Shown: in pieces, positions 38,131 to 45,417 of the stretch
Layout: each line of letters begins with the position of its first letter
How positions within the stretch are numbered: the first letter of the stretch is position 1
Assembly: GCF_018457175.1 (NCBI RefSeq)
Contig: NZ_JAGFNU010000004.1
Location: 186,001-250,000, forward strand
Length of the DNA stretch: 64,000 bases
Direction: 5' to 3'
Origin: Pseudohalocynthiibacter aestuariivivens
GTDB taxonomy: Bacteria > Pseudomonadota > Alphaproteobacteria > Rhodobacterales > Rhodobacteraceae
The notes under the pieces: generated by a model
Database searches by the model: none
The model's input: the letters and a program-made list of their open reading frames with translations, nothing else
What the model was told of the DNA's origin: nothing
Translations under genes and position numbers: made by a program

Positions 38131-39396
38131 CTAACCAACGGAAACCGGATTTTCTTTCGCATCACTGTGTACGAAAAGCGGTGCTGCATCAGAATTTACA
38201 GCCTCTTCATTCACAACAACCTCATCAACGCTGTCCATTCCGGGCAATTCAAACATCGTATCCAGCAAGATATCTTCCATGATAGACCGCAAACCTCGAG
38301 CACCCGTTTTCCGGTTTATCGCACGTTTTGCAATTGCAGCCAGCGCATCTTCGGTAAAGGTCAAGGTCGTGTCTTCTAACTCAAAAAGCCGTTGATATTG
38401 TTTGACCAATGCATTTTTGGGCTGCGTCAGAATCGTGATAAGCGCGTCTTCGTCCAGATCAGTCAGTGTTGCGATGACTGGTAGGCGGCCAACAAATTCC
38501 GGGATCAACCCAAATTTAAGAAGATCTTCAGGCTCAAGTTCAGTGAACATCTCACCGACACCGCGGGTGTCGTTGTCTTTCACATCTGCGCCGAATCCCA
38601 TGGATGAACCCTTGCCACGCGTCGCGATAATCTTTTCGAGACCTGCGAATGCACCGCCGCAAATGAACAGGATATTCGTGGTATCAACCTGAAGAAATTC
38701 CTGCTGCGGATGCTTGCGCCCGCCTTGTGGCGGAACAGAAGCGACTGTGCCTTCCATAATTTTCAGCAACGCTTGCTGAACGCCTTCACCCGACACATCA
38801 CGGGTTATCGAAGGATTGTCAGATTTACGCGTGATCTTATCAACTTCGTCAATATAAACGATACCACGCTGCGCGCGTTCAACATTGTATTCAGACGCTT
38901 GCAACAGCTTTAGAATAATGTTTTCAACGTCTTCCCCAACGTACCCTGCTTCGGTCAGCGTTGTGGCGTCAGCCATTGTGAAGGGGACATCCAGAATACG
39001 CGCCAGCGTTTGCGCAAGAAGCGTTTTACCGCACCCCGTAGGGCCAATAAGCATGATGTTCGATTTCGCGAGTTCAATCTCACCAGATTTAGAGCCGTGA
39101 TTCAGGCGCTTATAGTGATTGTGAACCGCGACTGACAGCACCCGTTTCGCATGTGTTTGTCCGATGACATAGTCATCCAGCACAGTACAAATCTCGCGAG
39201 GAGATGGCACGCCCTCGGATGATTTCAGCCCGGCTGTCTTGGTCTCTTCGCGTATGATATCCATGCACAGCTCGACGCACTCGTCGCAGATGAACACTGT
39301 TGGGCCAGCGATAAGTTTACGCACCTCATGCTGACTCTTTCCGCAAAAAGAGCAGTACAGGGTGTTTTTACCGTCGTTGCCAGAATTATTCGCCAT
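38131..39396 (-). CDS. clpX: ATP-dependent Clp protease ATP-binding subunit ClpX
   Basis: 421-residue AAA+ unfoldase. The N-terminal zinc finger has '[17 protein letters not shown]' and 'CDECVELC'. The AAA+ core has Walker A '[17 protein letters not shown]', Walker B '[10 protein letters not shown]' and the pore loop GYVG in '[12 protein letters not shown]'. The '[10 protein letters not shown]' block holds the sensor region, and the IGF-type ClpP-binding loop is represented near 'FGLIPEF' and 'IGQT' areas only by position. The ATG at 39396 is preceded by GAGGAAAG. It unfolds substrates for ClpP encoded immediately upstream. Confidence 0.97.
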
Positions 39397-39399
39397 CAC

Positions 39400-39535
39400 T
39401 TTCCTCTAAGGCCATCGCCTCACTCTGATACCCGCCAAATTATGGCAGGAGTTGGTGCCCTCGACCCAGCTTAGGCCAGCCAAATTTGATCTACAACGCC
39501 AAAATCACGACTTTGGCTCCTGCCTCGTAAATGGA
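39400..39535 (-). other. clpP-clpX intergenic region with long-range inverted repeat
   Basis: This 136-bp gap contains CTCCTGCC (39517-39524) and its complement GGCAGGAG (39444-39451), which could close a large structured loop on the clpPX transcript. I see no clear terminator or separate small gene in it. Confidence 0.35.
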
Positions 39536-40159
39536 TTAGGTGTCAGATTTAGGGCGATTTTCGACAATTTCGTCGATCAGGCCCCATTCTTTTGCGTCCT
39601 CTGCGGACATAAAGTTGTCTCTCTCCAGCGCGTCGACAACGGCTTTTATCTTCTGACCGGTGTGTTTCACATAGATCTGATTAAGACGATCTTTGAGCTT
39701 TTGTGTCTCTTGCGCGTGAATCATAATATCTGTCGCCTGCCCCTGATACCCACCAGACGGCTGGTGCACCATTACACGGCTGTTCGGCAGCGAATAGCGC
39801 ATCCCAGGCTCGCCTGCCGTTAACAAAAGCGAGCCCATAGAAGCGGCCTGACCGATTACGACAGTAGAAACTTTGGGCTTGATGTACTGCATCGTGTCGT
39901 AGATCGAGAGACCAGAGGTCACTACGCCACCCGGCGAATTGATGTACATCGAGATTTCTTTTGAAGGGTTTTCAGATTCCAGAAACAGAAGCTGCGCAAC
40001 AATAACGGTTGCCATCTCATCGTGAACCGGACCTGCAACAAAGATGATACGTTCTTTCAGGAGTCGCGAAAAGATATCATAGCGGATCGAACCACGTGAT
40101 GTTGTCTCTTCGACGGTTGGAATTATGAAGTTAGTGAGTGTTGAAATTGGATCGTACAT
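39536..40159 (-). CDS. clpP: ATP-dependent Clp protease proteolytic subunit ClpP
   Basis: 207-residue serine peptidase. Catalytic Ser107 lies in '[11 protein letters not shown]' and His132 in 'VMVHQPSGG', and the family block '[20 protein letters not shown]' is intact. It forms the 14-subunit chamber that degrades polypeptides fed by ClpX. The short propeptide '[10 protein letters not shown]' is roseobacter-like. It lies upstream of clpX in the usual order with a 139-bp gap. Confidence 0.97.
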
Positions 40160-40321: not shown

Positions 40322-41353
40322 TCAATGATGCGGTCGCAATCCCTTCTGTTTCATTTGCTCAGCCGACCGATCCTCCCCCATCAGGGTTTCAGAAAAGAAT
40401 GTGACCTGAGCACGCCCTTTGCTTTTCGACGCATAGAGCGCAAAATCTGCATCTGCGAGCATTTTTTCAGCATTCAGGCTCTCGTAATTTTCAGAGGTCG
40501 TCGCACCAATACTTGCGGAAATTCTGCAGAGCGCTCCGTTGAACGCAATCGGCCGTTCCAACTTCGCGATTATCCTTTGTGCAAAAATTTTTAGTTTCGC
40601 GGCGTCCGTCATATCCGGAAAGAGAACGACAAACTCATCACCACCAACCCTTGCGACAGTGTCATCCAAGCGTGTTTCTGCGACAAGCACATTGGCAACT
40701 TCCTGCAGTACATAGTCCCCCGCTGCGTGCCCATAGGTGTCATTCACATCCTTGAAAAAATCCAGGTCAAGGTGCATCAGGCCGAACCGTCTGTTTGCCT
40801 CAATCTTGCGCGCGAGAATATGGTCCATAGCGCGGCGGTTCTTCAGGCCCGTCAATGTATCTGAAAGCGCTTGTTCTTCCGCTACTGTTTTTGCGCTTTG
40901 CAATCTGTTGTTCAGTTTACGCAGCTCGTTCATCACAGCTGTCTTAGCCTCGACAAGGTAAAGCATTTCCACAGTAAGATCCGTCGGCGCGAAATCGGCT
41001 ATCGTTAGCCCGTACTCACGCACGCAATCCAAAACCGAGATCCCAAAGGACAGGTTGAGCAGGACACGCTCATCACATGTTTTGACGATTTGACCTTTAA
41101 ACGATGTTGCGGGTTCGGAACGAAACCGCAAATACAGTTTATGGCCCACAAGATTAAAGAGTTCTGAAACGTGCTTTACACCTGCCGGACGACGCAGTCT
41201 GAAGACGTCCAGAAATGGATTTCCGATCAGTTCGCCCTTCGGTCTCAGCTTCATCAGGGTCGGGCCTGCATGGGTAATATCACCAGATACATTCAGACAA
41301 AGGTGCATCGGAATAAGCTGGTCGAGCACTTGCCCCAACTGAAACTCTGTCAT
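40322..41353 (-). CDS. Diguanylate cyclase (GGDEF) with H-NOX-associated-like N-terminal domain
   Basis: 343-residue cytoplasmic protein. Residues about 1-130 resemble the HNOBA domain of guanylate cyclases: a PAS-like start ('GPTLMKLRPKGELIGNPFLD') followed by 'FKGQIVKTCDERVLLNLSFGISV' type strands. A coiled coil lies at about 132-165. The GGDEF domain has 'TLTGLKNRRAMD', 'HLDLDFFKDVNDTYGH' and the intact active site 'RVGGDEFVV', with an RxxD inhibitory site (RLDD) five residues upstream, so cyclic-di-GMP synthesis with product inhibition is expected. Its ATG overlaps the stop of the H-NOX-like frame by four bases, showing that the two were built as one signalling unit. Confidence 0.85.
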   Translation of the reverse strand: MTEFQLGQVLDQLIPMHLCLNVSGDITHAGPTLMKLRPKGELIGNPFLDVFRLRRPAGVKHVSELFNLVGHKLYLRFRSEPATSFKGQIVKTCDERVLLNLSFGISVLDCVREYGLTIADFAPTDLTVEMLYLVEAKTAVMNELRKLNNRLQSAKTVAEEQALSDTLTGLKNRRAMDHILARKIEANRRFGLMHLDLDFFKDVNDTYGHAAGDYVLQEVANVLVAETRLDDTVARVGGDEFVVLFPDMTDAAKLKIFAQRIIAKLERPIAFNGALCRISASIGATTSENYESLNAEKMLADADFALYASKSKGRAQVTFFSETLMGEDRSAEQMKQKGLRPHH

Positions 41354-41947
41354 GCCACCTCACCTGCGATCTGTGTCAGGTCGAATGCACGCCCCTCCGA
41401 AAAGTCGGACTCAAACACTGAAATCGATATTTTTTCAAAACCCAGTTCAGCGCCCTCATACTCCAGAAACACCAATGCACCGTAATCATCCGCCATTCCG
41501 CGTAATAGCCCGAGCGCAACATGCCCAAAACCGGTATGGACCCAATGACTGAACAGGGTAAAATTTCCCTTTCCGTTGTCTTTCAATTCCAATCTGGGAA
41601 TATCGAGATCAGGCACAGCAAGTTTCGCCCGATCCTGAAGATCATCCAGAGAATGAAGAAACTCAACGAAGTTGACTCCGCCAAAGCGCAGCAAACGGCG
41701 AACGGCCACAACATTCCTATGAGAAACAAGATACGTACCCGAATCTTCCATCACGTCGTCACGGGGATTAGAAAGCCGAACGGCTAATTGCATCCAGAAC
41801 AGCATAAGTCAGGCTGTCATCGTAGCTGAGCATCGCCTCAAAGCCTGGTAACCCGATGTTTGCCGAAACAGCCACGTCAGCCCAGATCTGCGCACCATAG
41901 GTATCTTGAACGAAACATTGGATAGACCGGTTAATCAGACCATGCAT
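41350..41947 (-). pseudogene. H-NOX (heme-NO-binding)-like sensor gene, split by a one-base frameshift
   Basis: The intact-looking ATG at 41947, behind GAGGGGAAG, opens MHGLINRSIQCFVQDTYG, the standard H-NOX start, but stops at 41762 after 61 codons. The rest of the domain continues in the next frame to 41350. Dropping one base near 41778 restores LDAISR-RLSNPRDD and a protein of about 198 residues. Two features of a heme site are missing: the proximal histidine, found in the LDxLH motif of the family, is Gln in 'SLDDLQDRA', and the YxSxR heme-propionate motif is replaced around 'FSHWVHTGF'. The fold is otherwise recognisable ('LAVPDLDIPRLEL', 'GLLRGMADDYG'). It may be a decaying gene, a sequencing error, or two coupled polypeptides. 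Confidence 0.8.
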
Positions 41948-42010: not shown

Positions 42011-43783
42011 TCAGGGTTGAATAAAGATTGAACTATCTAGCAAGCGCAGAACCTGTATTTCAGCAGGCCCCGTCGCAAATCTACCCGCGAGAATCGCGTC
42101 AACCGTATCCGCGCCTCGATAATTACTGCTCGAATCACTGAGATCAGAGAGATATTGTTTAAATTCATAGCCACCGTTCTCGGTCGGCACGAAAGCGACC
42201 AACCGGGCGCTCTGGCTGCCTGTCATATATGCGACGATCACTTCCGGATCGGTTGTCGCAGGCAACAGGTCAACAAACAAGGCAACACATCCCGAATGCC
42301 CCTCTGGCGTCGTTCGCCCGCAACCATCCATGATCGCGTTTAAGGTATTGCTGGGAAGACGTGCAAACATTTCTTCTTTTAGAACCGCGCTCTCGGGACG
42401 CACAGCAAGGATTTGGAGCAGCTCTCGTGTTGACAAATTAATCTCGGTTGTGGTTCTTGTATTCTCTAATTCGTATCGGTTGGATGCTTCCGTGACGCGC
42501 GTAATCTTAGCTTGCAATTGCTCTGATTGTGGGTGATCTGTCATTGCTTCAAGACGCCTTAGCCCTGCAGCACCGGCATGCCCCCATTCCCGGCCAATCG
42601 CCCACACATCAAGCGTTTCAACATCGGTACGACCCGCTTCAAAACGCGCGATCTGGTTGTTTGTTGAAATACGTTCCGGGTTTAATACAGGCGTCAGCCA
42701 TAAAGCAGCCAAGGCAATCAGAAGCAAAGCAATATAGGTATTTGCCCGTCTTATGTGGATCATCCAGTTATGACGCAATATCACGGAAACCGCATAAGCC
42801 ACTGCGTAGGTTTGCATAAGAACAACAACTGTTGCCAGTGCAAGCCGGTCCGGGGTCCAGCCATATTGATCAACCCGAAGCCAGACAGCATAGCCGGCAA
42901 GCGCAACTATAATCGGCGTCATCAGAGACAAGAGCCGCACCGAACCAAGCATAACAAAGCCTTCAACAGCATCAGCGTCTTCTTTTTCCAGTGCTGTTGA
43001 GACAAGGGTTACAGCAGCGACAGCTATCGCGAGTAAAGTTGCGGCAGCGGATAGGCCCGCGAACAATCCTGATAAGCCCTGCAATGGTAACGCCAGAACA
43101 AAGACGGCAACGACCACAACAAACGCGGGCAACAGCAATCGCAACAGCCGTAAAATCAAGAAGGGTGATACATAGTCTGAAAGTTCGTTCACGACGGCAA
43201 TTGCCAGACCTAATATGCCACCTGTCAGCGCAAATGGCACCCAGTCAATATCAAGCAAGTCCTCAATGGTCGTAAGGCCAACGATATTAAACAGAGCGTT
43301 GCACAGCATTACGACGGCCCAAAAAATGCCGACGAACAACCAGGCTGCGGCGTAACGGACAACAATGTTCCAGGCGTGATCGAACAATGCCGGATAGTAA
43401 CGCCAGCCCTCTTTTGCGCTTTGAGCGGTAATCAGAAAGGGCAGTGGAATGGTAATGAGCACACTGTATGCGATCAGGGGTAAACCCGTTTCCAGAAACT
43501 CTTCCATCTCGACAAATCGAAAACTTGCCCAAAACAATAGCAAGGCTGACGGAACAGCAACCACCACCGCTGAAAGAGCAGCGCGCCCAAGCTTGAGCGG
43601 GCCAAACAGGGCCATCAACGATCCAAAAAACCCAAACGTCGCCGCAGCAATCAGCAAAAACACATGCGAATTGCTGAAAAAGTCTTCGAGCACTTCGAAC
43701 AAAAACCAGAAACTGTACCCGGCGAACCCGCCGATCAGTGCTAAAAGCAACCGGTTCCGATTGGTGATTGTATCTGTGCTCAT
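42011..43783 (-). CDS. DUF4153 family membrane protein
   Basis: 590-residue inner-membrane protein. The first 360 residues hold about ten to twelve hydrophobic segments, with conserved-looking 'GWRYYPALFDHAWNIVVRYAAAWLF' region. The last 220 residues are soluble and probably periplasmic, with 'VWAIGREWGHAGAAGLRRLE' type sequence and two cysteines near 'DGCGRTTPEGHSGC'. The pattern matches DUF4153, whose function is unknown. It is upstream of the H-NOX-like gene by 63 bp in the same direction and may share a transcript. Confidence 0.88.
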   Translation of the reverse strand: MSTDTITNRNRLLLALIGGFAGYSFWFLFEVLEDFFSNSHVFLLIAAATFGFFGSLMALFGPLKLGRAALSAVVVAVPSALLLFWASFRFVEMEEFLETGLPLIAYSVLITIPLPFLITAQSAKEGWRYYPALFDHAWNIVVRYAAAWLFVGIFWAVVMLCNALFNIVGLTTIEDLLDIDWVPFALTGGILGLAIAVVNELSDYVSPFLILRLLRLLLPAFVVVVAVFVLALPLQGLSGLFAGLSAAATLLAIAVAAVTLVSTALEKEDADAVEGFVMLGSVRLLSLMTPIIVALAGYAVWLRVDQYGWTPDRLALATVVVLMQTYAVAYAVSVILRHNWMIHIRRANTYIALLLIALAALWLTPVLNPERISTNNQIARFEAGRTDVETLDVWAIGREWGHAGAAGLRRLEAMTDHPQSEQLQAKITRVTEASNRYELENTRTTTEINLSTRELLQILAVRPESAVLKEEMFARLPSNTLNAIMDGCGRTTPEGHSGCVALFVDLLPATTDPEVIVAYMTGSQSARLVAFVPTENGGYEFKQYLSDLSDSSSNYRGADTVDAILAGRFATGPAEIQVLRLLDSSIFIQP

Positions 43784-43866: not shown

Positions 43867-45417
43867 TTAGAAATCAGTTGGCGCGCCACCTTCTGCTTTT
43901 CTGCGCGTTACAAATTCTGCGAGTTCTTCTCTGATCGACACATCCATCGCCGGAGTTTCGAATTCATTGATGATGTTCTTGAACATTTTATTGGCGCGTT
44001 CCGCTGTCCAGTAACCTCCAGCCAGATCCCAGCCCTCATAGTTTCGCCAGTCAGAAAGGAAAGGCTGATAAAACGCGTGCTCATAACGATCCTGCGTATG
44101 CTGAATGCCAAAGAAGTGCCCGTCATTTCCGACGTCCTTGATCGCATCAAGCGCAATATCATCAGGTGTTGTAGCCGTAATCATCGGTTCAAAATAACGC
44201 TGGATTTGCTGTAAGACCTCGCAATCCATGATGAATTTTTCCGGGCTTGCAATTAGCCCACCCTCAAGCCAGCCAGCCGCGTGATAAACCATGTGCGATT
44301 GCGACTGCACCGCCGCCCAAAGCGAATTTGAGGTTTCCCACATTGCCTGACCATCCGGCACATTCGCAGCGCACACGCCGGACGACCGCATCGGCAAACC
44401 GTAAAACCGCGCCATCTGGCCAGTCATCTGGGTTGCCCGCATATATTCCGGTGTTCCAAACGCCGGCGCACCTGTTTTCATGTCAACGTTTGAGGTAAAG
44501 GTACCTATCCCACAGGGCGCGCCTGGGCGAATATATTGCGCCAGAACGATCGCGATTAACCCTTCAGCCAACGACTGCGCAACAGCACCAGCCATTGTGA
44601 CAGGCGCCATCGCCCCGGCCAACGTGAAGGGTGTTACCACCGTAACCTGCCCGCGCCGCACGCAGCGCATGTATCCGTCAAGCATAAGATGATCGTGCTT
44701 CAGTGGCGAAGTTGAGTTGATGTTTGTGTACATCCTTGGTGTCGCTTCGAATTCTTCGTGACTGAGGCCGCCTGCGATACGCACCATCTCCATCACATCT
44801 TCGACACGCTCTTTGCCCAGGCTATAGGCATGCGGCACCTTGTCCGTCAGGGTCAGCTTGTCGAAAAGCACATCCAGATGCCTGACAGACGCATGCACAT
44901 CGACGGGTTCTACCGGATAACCGCCCGCGACGTGAATACAGTTGAAATACTGCGTCAGTTTCAGCAGATTTGCACAATGTTCGCGCGTTCCCGGGACTTT
45001 TCCGGTCTCCATATCCCAATAGTTTGGCGGACTAGAGACATTCACAAACACCATATGTTTGCCGCCAATGGCAATCTTGCGATCCGGGTTGCGCGGTGTG
45101 ATCGTAAACTCTGACGGGGCCTTGGCGACCAGTTCCATCACCGTATCCCGGTCGATGCGAACGTTGGTTCCGTCAATCCGGCACCCCATTTCCTTGAATA
45201 TCGCGAGCGCATCATCGAACAGGATTTCAATGCCGATATCTTCAAGAATACGCATGGCACCGCCATGAATGGCCTGAACGCCTTCTTCAGTCAGCGGTTC
45301 TGTCGGGCGATCAGTGTTCACTGGAATGCGCCAGGGCATTTGATCTATCGTGCTACCTGAACCGCGGGTATTTCCCGCTCTGCCGCCAGACCGTTGCCTA
45401 CGTGTGGTTTTCGCCAT
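43867..45417 (-). CDS. Trimethylamine methyltransferase (MttB) family protein, non-pyrrolysine
   Basis: 516-residue barrel protein of the MttB superfamily. These enzymes move a methyl group from a quaternary or tertiary amine to a corrinoid protein. The N-terminus is basic and Gly/Arg-rich (about residues 1-22); the core runs from 'LTEEGVQAIHGGAMRILEDIGIEI' to 'YEHAFYQPFLSDWRNYEGW', given in part. There is no in-frame TAG, so the pyrrolysine of archaeal MttB is missing. Bacterial members of this kind include glycine betaine and carnitine demethylases, so a quaternary amine substrate is plausible. No corrinoid protein or activating gene is adjacent. Confidence 0.88.
   Translation of the reverse strand: MAKTTRRQRSGGRAGNTRGSGSTIDQMPWRIPVNTDRPTEPLTEEGVQAIHGGAMRILEDIGIEILFDDALAIFKEMGCRIDGTNVRIDRDTVMELVAKAPSEFTITPRNPDRKIAIGGKHMVFVNVSSPPNYWDMETGKVPGTREHCANLLKLTQYFNCIHVAGGYPVEPVDVHASVRHLDVLFDKLTLTDKVPHAYSLGKERVEDVMEMVRIAGGLSHEEFEATPRMYTNINSTSPLKHDHLMLDGYMRCVRRGQVTVVTPFTLAGAMAPVTMAGAVAQSLAEGLIAIVLAQYIRPGAPCGIGTFTSNVDMKTGAPAFGTPEYMRATQMTGQMARFYGLPMRSSGVCAANVPDGQAMWETSNSLWAAVQSQSHMVYHAAGWLEGGLIASPEKFIMDCEVLQQIQRYFEPMITATTPDDIALDAIKDVGNDGHFFGIQHTQDRYEHAFYQPFLSDWRNYEGWDLAGGYWTAERANKMFKNIINEFETPAMDVSIREELAEFVTRRKAEGGAPTDF

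Follow-up and report, generated by a model that had tools for sequence, protein, structure and literature searches.

A frame-broken group-5 H-NOX gene without the proximal heme histidine, next to an HNOBA-GGDEF cyclase gene in Pseudohalocynthiibacter aestuariivivens

What does an H-NOX protein do beside a diguanylate cyclase when the histidine that should hold its heme is absent, and does this loss belong to a single damaged gene copy or to a whole family? The question is posed by a locus in a 64,000-nucleotide stretch of Pseudohalocynthiibacter aestuariivivens DNA (contig NZ_JAGFNU010000004.1), which we refer to as the window. The missing histidine, the neighbouring diguanylate cyclase and the puzzle of sensing in the so-called group 5 of H-NOX proteins have already been published (PMC5588039, PMC8738867). 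Kumar and Spiro (2017, PMC5588039) report that the axial His is missing from the H-NOX proteins of P. denitrificans and R. sphaeroides and that the P. denitrificans gene, hnoX, overlaps a GGDEF gene; the phenotype of the hnoX mutant was read as H-NOX inhibiting DgcA. In a 2022 review (PMC8738867), group 5 is described as a very large cluster, with the proximal His in less than 10% of its members and Pro in most, and the question is raised how these proteins sense anything.

The locus and its missing heme residues

The features of the locus on which the argument depends are the following.

41768..41947, minus strand: N-terminal fragment of the H-NOX gene, 59 codons plus stop (MHGLINRSIQ...LDAISRSAF), covering HNOB profile positions 1-56
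41350..41805, minus strand: C-terminal fragment of the H-NOX gene, an open reading frame of 151 amino acids with a PF07700 match, profile positions 51-156 (53-156 in a second search)
41777..41793, minus strand: stretch in which the reading homologous to H-NOX changes frame and the two HNOB matches overlap
41942..41944, minus strand: codon of His2, a possible alternative contact for heme or ligand
41635..41637, minus strand: Gln57 (CAG) at the place of the proximal heme His, by alignment to Nostoc Alr2278
41536..41550, minus strand: SHWVH (Ser86, Trp88, His90) in place of YxSxR, by alignment to Nostoc Alr2278
41596..41598, minus strand: Pro70, conserved in group-5 relatives
41377..41403, minus strand: C-terminal tail FSEGRAFDL, in which G-R-x-F-x-L is nearly fixed in group 5
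40322..41353, minus strand: partner diguanylate cyclase, 343 amino acids, with the GGDEF motif
40880..41353, minus strand: HNOBA (PAS) domain (PF07701) and coiled coil of the cyclase, the predicted fold of which resembles sGC beta1 residues 205-385
40409..40867, minus strand: GGDEF domain of the cyclase, residues 163-315 (PF00990, 142.5 bits)

One frame break, at about 41777-41793, divides the H-NOX gene, which consists of two overlapping frames and has no single open reading frame; a preliminary description of the window, prepared from its letters alone, hinted at this by speaking of a repaired protein. In a Pfam profile search both parts exceeded the PF07700 (HNOB) cut-off of 25.5 bits, the C-terminal part with 41.6 bits (42.1 in a second search) and the N-terminal part with 27.4, and a search of the whole genome with the HNOB profile (E 0.001) matched only these two fragments and no second H-NOX. 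The gene lies directly upstream of the cyclase gene, the ATG of which overlaps the H-NOX stop codon as ATGA, and the cyclase combines in one chain an HNOBA domain (PF07701, 37.9 bits against a cut-off of 23.4) and a GGDEF domain (PF00990, 142.5 bits against a cut-off of 23.8).

The surroundings were inspected by eye. Upstream of H-NOX, 42011-43783 (minus strand) encodes a large multi-helix membrane protein, a look-alike of which is found at the equivalent place in D. shibae (L163, 2067-3449). The product of 43867-45417 (minus strand) resembles the trimethylamine methyltransferase (MttB) family; an MttB-annotated gene precedes H-NOX in Phaeobacter sp. G2 (L273), as does a similar open reading frame in L274. 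Downstream of the cyclase, clpX- and clpP-like genes occupy 38131-40159 (minus strand), in an order that is identical in L166 (genome G194).

A phmmer alignment (E 4.5e-6) pairs residues 11-110 of the window's protein with residues 59-158 of Nostoc Alr2278 (4iae) without a gap. Gln57, within SLDDLQDRA, falls on residue 105 of Alr2278, the proximal heme His of the Nostoc protein. The role of proximal heme ligand is named for His105 of sGC beta in PMC8196705. The alignment is gapless in this region, which rules out that another His slides into the proximal place. The YQSTR motif of Alr2278 falls on Ser86-His-Trp88-Val-His90, so that Ser86, Trp88 and His90, within FSHWVHTGF, take the motif positions. 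The preliminary description had reported by eye both the replacement of the ligand His by Gln and the loss of YxSxR, and both observations are confirmed. Of 30 canonical H-NOX proteins of the Rhodobacteraceae, all carry His in the proximal column as well as the Tyr and Ser of YxSxR, and 29 carry the Arg of the motif; these 30 proteins are the best PF07700 matches of the family, a choice biased to the canonical type. The window's protein has neither of the two marks of a canonical heme-binding H-NOX, that is, the proximal His and YxSxR.

Group-5 relatives across the Rhodobacteraceae

In a survey of 394 Rhodobacteraceae genomes, one per genus, PF07700 matched 295 genomes, and the window's own protein matched 283 of the 394 genera, a few of them through canonical H-NOX. 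Judged by sequence identity, the window's protein is a group-5 member, an assignment made by likeness rather than by rebuilding the published cluster: it is nearer to the H-NOX of P. denitrificans (40%) than to canonical H-NOX (27% to L164), with 47% identity to D. shibae and up to 63% to other relatives. We compiled 129 group-5 relatives (L034-L162) from the higher-scoring part of the 283 matching genomes, with some of the listed ones left out, and added D. shibae (L163) and 80 further relatives (L167-L246) obtained by scanning GTDB genomes, the best 80 of 526. After 16 duplicates were dropped, the 210 rows gave 194 distinct ones. The most divergent group-5 members are under-represented in this collection, and the proportions given below are valid for the sampled set.

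At the proximal site, the 194 distinct rows have Pro in 156, His in 17, Gln and Arg in four each, Asp and Ala in three each, Thr in two, and Ser, Glu, Asn, Lys and Tyr in one each; the share of His agrees with the figure of less than 10% in PMC8738867. In the first 129 relatives, the counts are Pro 105, His 10, Gln 4, Arg 3, Thr 2, and Ser, Asp, Glu, Asn and Ala 1 each, and in the best 80 of 526 they are Pro 67, His 6, Asp 2, Ala 2, and Arg, Tyr and Lys 1 each. Among 15 helix-F columns, which range from 0.05 to 1.26 bits and several of which are nearly fixed, only one varies more than the proximal site with its 1.24 bits. On a FastTree tree of 197 rows, built with the window and two canonical outgroup rows included and with rows L005-L032, the duplicates and the proximal column itself removed, the site has changed between His and non-His at least 13 times, many forks of this tree being weak.

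The preliminary description had raised the prospect of a Rhodobacterales subclade that shares Gln at this place. No such subclade emerged: Gln is found in four of the 194 distinct relatives, at three separate places of the tree (L065; L126; L106 with L130), all away from the window's row, and its use as a subclade marker is thereby ruled out. The window's row sits in a weakly supported group with His rows (L034, L040, L049, L170) and Pro rows. Because several His rows belong to this weakly supported neighbourhood, the Gln may stem from a local loss of recent date and not from the Pro-type lineage.

The YxSxR motif is complete in none of the 194 distinct group-5 rows, and none has Tyr at the first position of the motif, which is occupied by Cys in 136 of the 194, by Val in 37, and by Ser in the window (41548-41550). 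According to PMC8738867, group 5 is without a conserved Cys; in contrast, we find Cys to be common at this place, albeit not universal. All 194 distinct relatives have the equivalent of Pro70, and the GxLRxM helix characterizes the family, which agrees with the retention of the proline block (DIPRLEL) and the GLLRGM helix that had been noticed in the window. His2 is present in 188 of the 194, whereas the canonical His-type proteins instead have Lys in 26 of 30. The C-terminal G-R-x-F-x-L tail is seen in nearly all group-5 rows, and a counterpart is absent from the 30 aligned canonical H-NOX proteins.

We looked in the 210 rows for histidines that could compensate for the missing ligand. H2, H29, H51 and H95 are not commoner where the proximal His is missing, whereas H116 is present in 20 of the 21 rows that have neither His nor Pro at the proximal site, compared with 12 of 17 His rows and 124 of 172 Pro rows; the window has Tyr at this position. 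As far as the aligned sequences go, no single column takes over from the lost proximal His cleanly. A separate observation concerns Cys11, which occurs in 14 of 17 proximal-His rows compared with 58 of 172 Pro rows and is present in the window (41915-41917); this distribution may merely reflect kinship. Two canonical H-NOX proteins with His and YxSxR (L164, 3602-5997; L165, 3329-5176) score well with the group-5 profile and could be stepping stones to group 5.

Two characterized relatives are among the nearest known counterparts of the window's protein. The HnoX of P. denitrificans (Pden_3719, with DgcA) belongs to the same family, lacks the proximal His and YxSxR, and is encoded by a gene that is reported to overlap a GGDEF gene; it differs from the window's protein, with its Gln and frame break, in being unbroken and in having Pro at the proximal site, as read from RELPGR in strain HAMBI 2443. 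The H-NOX of D. shibae shares with the window's protein the MHGL start, the GRxFxL tail, the RRLLRF and MADDYG motifs, an HNOBA-GGDEF partner and the lack of YxSxR, but it has kept the proximal His (DDLHDRA) where the window has Gln. The gene carrying DDLHDRA was found in genome G035, as the sole HNOB match of that genome, on a contig that matches D. shibae plasmid NC_009955 at 100% with the same coordinates, and we take it to be Dshi_2815, the name used for D. shibae H-NOX in PMC7232146. This protein is listed with heme and with inhibition of Dgc1 in its NO-bound state (PMC8846402 Table 4; PMC7232146) and is the only Rhodobacterales entry in the NO-sensor table of PMC8846402. Because it is listed with heme although it is devoid of YxSxR, the loss of YxSxR alone does not exclude heme. 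Thus the heme data come from a member of the His minority and the mutant data from a Pro species, a contrast that we did not find stated in the passages of the literature cited here.

The partner cyclase and the frame break

The coupling to a diguanylate cyclase, which the preliminary description had noted for the window, extends to the relatives. A GGDEF open reading frame lies directly downstream of H-NOX in 127 of the 129 group-5 loci, with an ATGA overlap in 74 of the 127, and in 81 of 81 further group-5 loci; in the remaining two of the 129, the contig ends 718 and 111 bases beyond. The group-5 profile found 25 of the 30 canonical H-NOX, and 2 of these 25 have a GGDEF open reading frame next to them. 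The two canonical Rhodobacteraceae H-NOX mentioned above adjoin HNOBA proteins, one a GGDEF-EAL protein (23.2 bits, just below the cut-off of 23.4) and the other a histidine kinase (24.7 bits).

Co-occurrence was also assessed at the genome level, in 120 of the 394 genera, with the front 158 residues of the cyclase as the query, a count of joint presence that is separate from adjacency and from the GGDEF part. H-NOX and the cyclase front were found together in 83 genera, the cyclase alone in 2, H-NOX alone in none, and neither in 35, and in both cyclase-only genomes a contig begins where the cyclase match does. Among the 83 with both are G004, which has a canonical H-NOX beside an HNOBA kinase without GGDEF, and the window's own genome with its broken copy.

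The retention of the H-NOX shape, for which the preliminary description had proposed structure prediction, is borne out in an intact relative. The AlphaFold2 model of the Shimia aestuarii protein (L167, 33 rows) has a pLDDT of 87.5 and a pTM of 0.83 and superposes on sGC beta1 (8hbh_B) with Z 21.0 and rmsd 2.2 over 178 residues and on Nostoc H-NOX (2o09) with Z 20.6; the match to sGC alpha (Z 8.3, 115 residues) is weaker, the model being nearer to sGC beta. The H-NOX fold is thus predicted to be intact without the heme ligand, on a model of the intact relative and not of the broken copy. Residues 1-158 of the window's cyclase were predicted with a pLDDT of 90.7, and this model resembles residues 205-385 of sGC beta1, which form its PAS domain and coiled coil (Z 14.8 and rmsd 5.5 over 157 residues). 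It also matches the inactive sGC form 8hbe (Z 14.6 and rmsd 3.2 over 136 residues) and a histidine kinase PAS domain from Nostoc punctiforme (2p08, Z 14.2).

Whether the organism itself carries the frame break is a separate question. Adjacent protein matches of relatives that lie in different frames number 210 pairs at about 41800 and 4, 1 and 1 pairs elsewhere, in a survey that covers 22,112 window bases, mostly near the H-NOX locus, and that draws on the 400 kb of relative G054 only where they match the window. The window's fragments keep 45 of 45 positions that are conserved at 95% or more among the relatives and 56 of 57 positions conserved at 90% or more, the relatives themselves having a median of one miss at the latter. 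Therefore the break is either recent or an error in the sequence, and pseudogene decay is ruled out as the cause of the odd residues in the family motifs. The genus is represented by one genome only; the surveyed relatives include intact copies of the gene.

The chance that the break is a sequencing or assembly error, and that the organism has an intact Gln-type group-5 H-NOX, appears to us to be a little short of even. Such an error is consistent with the undecayed look of both flanks of the break and with the survey of 120 genera, in which no cyclase-only genome was found away from contig starts. Against it, no more than four differing-frame pairs were seen at any other place in the covered bases compared with 210 at the break, and the assembly is therefore not error-rich there; moreover, an interrupted H-NOX was found once more, in genome G270. 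Given that the H-NOX of G270 is interrupted and its cyclase open reading frame is full-length, real losses of H-NOX seem to occur. In the window's genome, where no second copy of the interrupted H-NOX was found, the loss of the cyclase's partner must be very recent, or else the sequence is in error at the break. As assembled, the window's H-NOX is broken, and its annotation as a working NO sensor is unwarranted.

The G270 locus (L274, 1336-2007) merits a description of its own. It contains a group-5 H-NOX with His at the proximal site and an in-frame stop, followed by a full-length HNOBA-GGDEF-like open reading frame, and several residues that are fixed in the family have changed as well, so that this copy looks like a case of true decay.

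Proposed function of the H-NOX and cyclase pair

We favour, with moderate confidence, the reading that the window's feature is a broken group-5 H-NOX and that proteins of this kind are partner modules of a split, sGC-like HNOBA-GGDEF complex that mostly operates without His-ligated heme. Under this model, group 5 would be the sensor half of a divided sGC-like machine, with the H-NOX free and the PAS domain, the coiled coil and the cyclase combined in the partner. By analogy with the H-NOX domain inside sGC, the H-NOX-shaped protein of intact relatives would dock on the PAS (HNOBA) domain and coiled coil of the cyclase and, once docked, tune the synthesis of c-di-GMP; we infer the docking geometry, the lack of heme and the direction of control. 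The conserved run of charged residues and the tail would fit a docking role. The input to such a pseudo-H-NOX could be another ligand, a heme that is weakly or differently held, or the partner's own state. The switch of canonical systems is the breaking of the Fe-His bond by NO, upon which helix F moves (PMC8196705). Where Pro, Gln, Arg or Asp replaces the His, such a switch is therefore impossible. The interpretation in the preliminary description is partly supported, namely in the loss of the two heme motifs, the retention of the proline and of the predicted fold, and the coupling to a cyclase; the domain may, as was also suggested there, bind something other than heme or serve as a protein-interaction module for the cyclase.

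A more specific version of this model, which we put forward tentatively and regard as possible rather than probable, is that most group-5 H-NOX proteins are heme-free pseudo-sensors, a bacterial two-protein counterpart of the pseudo-H-NOX of sGC, that control the HNOBA-GGDEF partner by docking and accommodate a non-heme ligand in the emptied cleft. Such a ligand might be held by the cleft itself, by the nearly invariant His2 and by the Cys that is often present at the old propionate site. The nearest precedent is the sGC alpha 'pseudo-H-NOX', which as described in PMC8196705 has no heme, the human protein lacking the ligand His and the moth protein lacking YxSxR. It likewise is an H-NOX fold without heme that works together with a PAS domain, a coiled coil and a cyclase in one complex. 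It differs in being fused to a guanylate cyclase and in having an N-terminal extension that fills the pocket, whereas the group-5 H-NOX is a separate protein that starts from MHGL. The H-NOX of Vibrio cholerae is, in the account of PMC8738867, another H-NOX able to act heme-free, in redox sensing, but it uses zinc-site cysteines; at the first position of the YxSxR motif the window's protein has Ser. Nostoc sp. H-NOX (Alr2278), which is the nearest solved structure in sequence and one of the nearest in fold, differs in having both His105 and YQSTR.

The opposite possibility is that group 5 still binds heme and senses NO through a different axial ligand, most likely the distal His2, such that the cofactor is kept and the side of its attachment is swapped. 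This scenario gains some credence from the conservation of His2 described above (188 of 194 distinct relatives, compared with Lys in 26 of 30 His-type proteins), from the location of residue 2 three residues before position 5, which lines a long gas tunnel in Ka H-NOX (PMC7356049), and from the listing of D. shibae H-NOX with heme and a response to NO (PMC8846402). However, the D. shibae protein has the proximal His, and rows with the proximal His retain His2 to the same degree (16 of 17), so that His2 does not compensate for the loss of the proximal His; we consider the swap unlikely. Less probable still is that the Gln arose by chance in a dead gene, in which case the window's H-NOX would be a pseudogene under no selection and uninformative on the family: the split gene without a second copy found in the genome and the case of G270, where H-NOX is lost and the cyclase kept, would accord with this view, but the single change at the 57 positions conserved at 90% or more, no more than the median of the relatives, largely refutes it, and non-His at the proximal site is the rule among relatives.

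The model of a split, sGC-like complex mostly without His-ligated heme bears on the family at large. A protein that is named for heme and NO, and that is frequent among marine bacteria and widespread in the Rhodobacteraceae, is without the heme ligand in about nine of ten sampled cases. If the heme-free version of the model is true, the heme data from D. shibae would cover only about one in eleven members, namely those with the proximal His. The juxtaposition of D. shibae (His) and P. denitrificans (Pro) sharpens the question whether NO sensing may be assumed for other group-5 members, and it is in this sharpened question of a heme-free function, rather than in the single gene of the window, that the interest of the locus lies.
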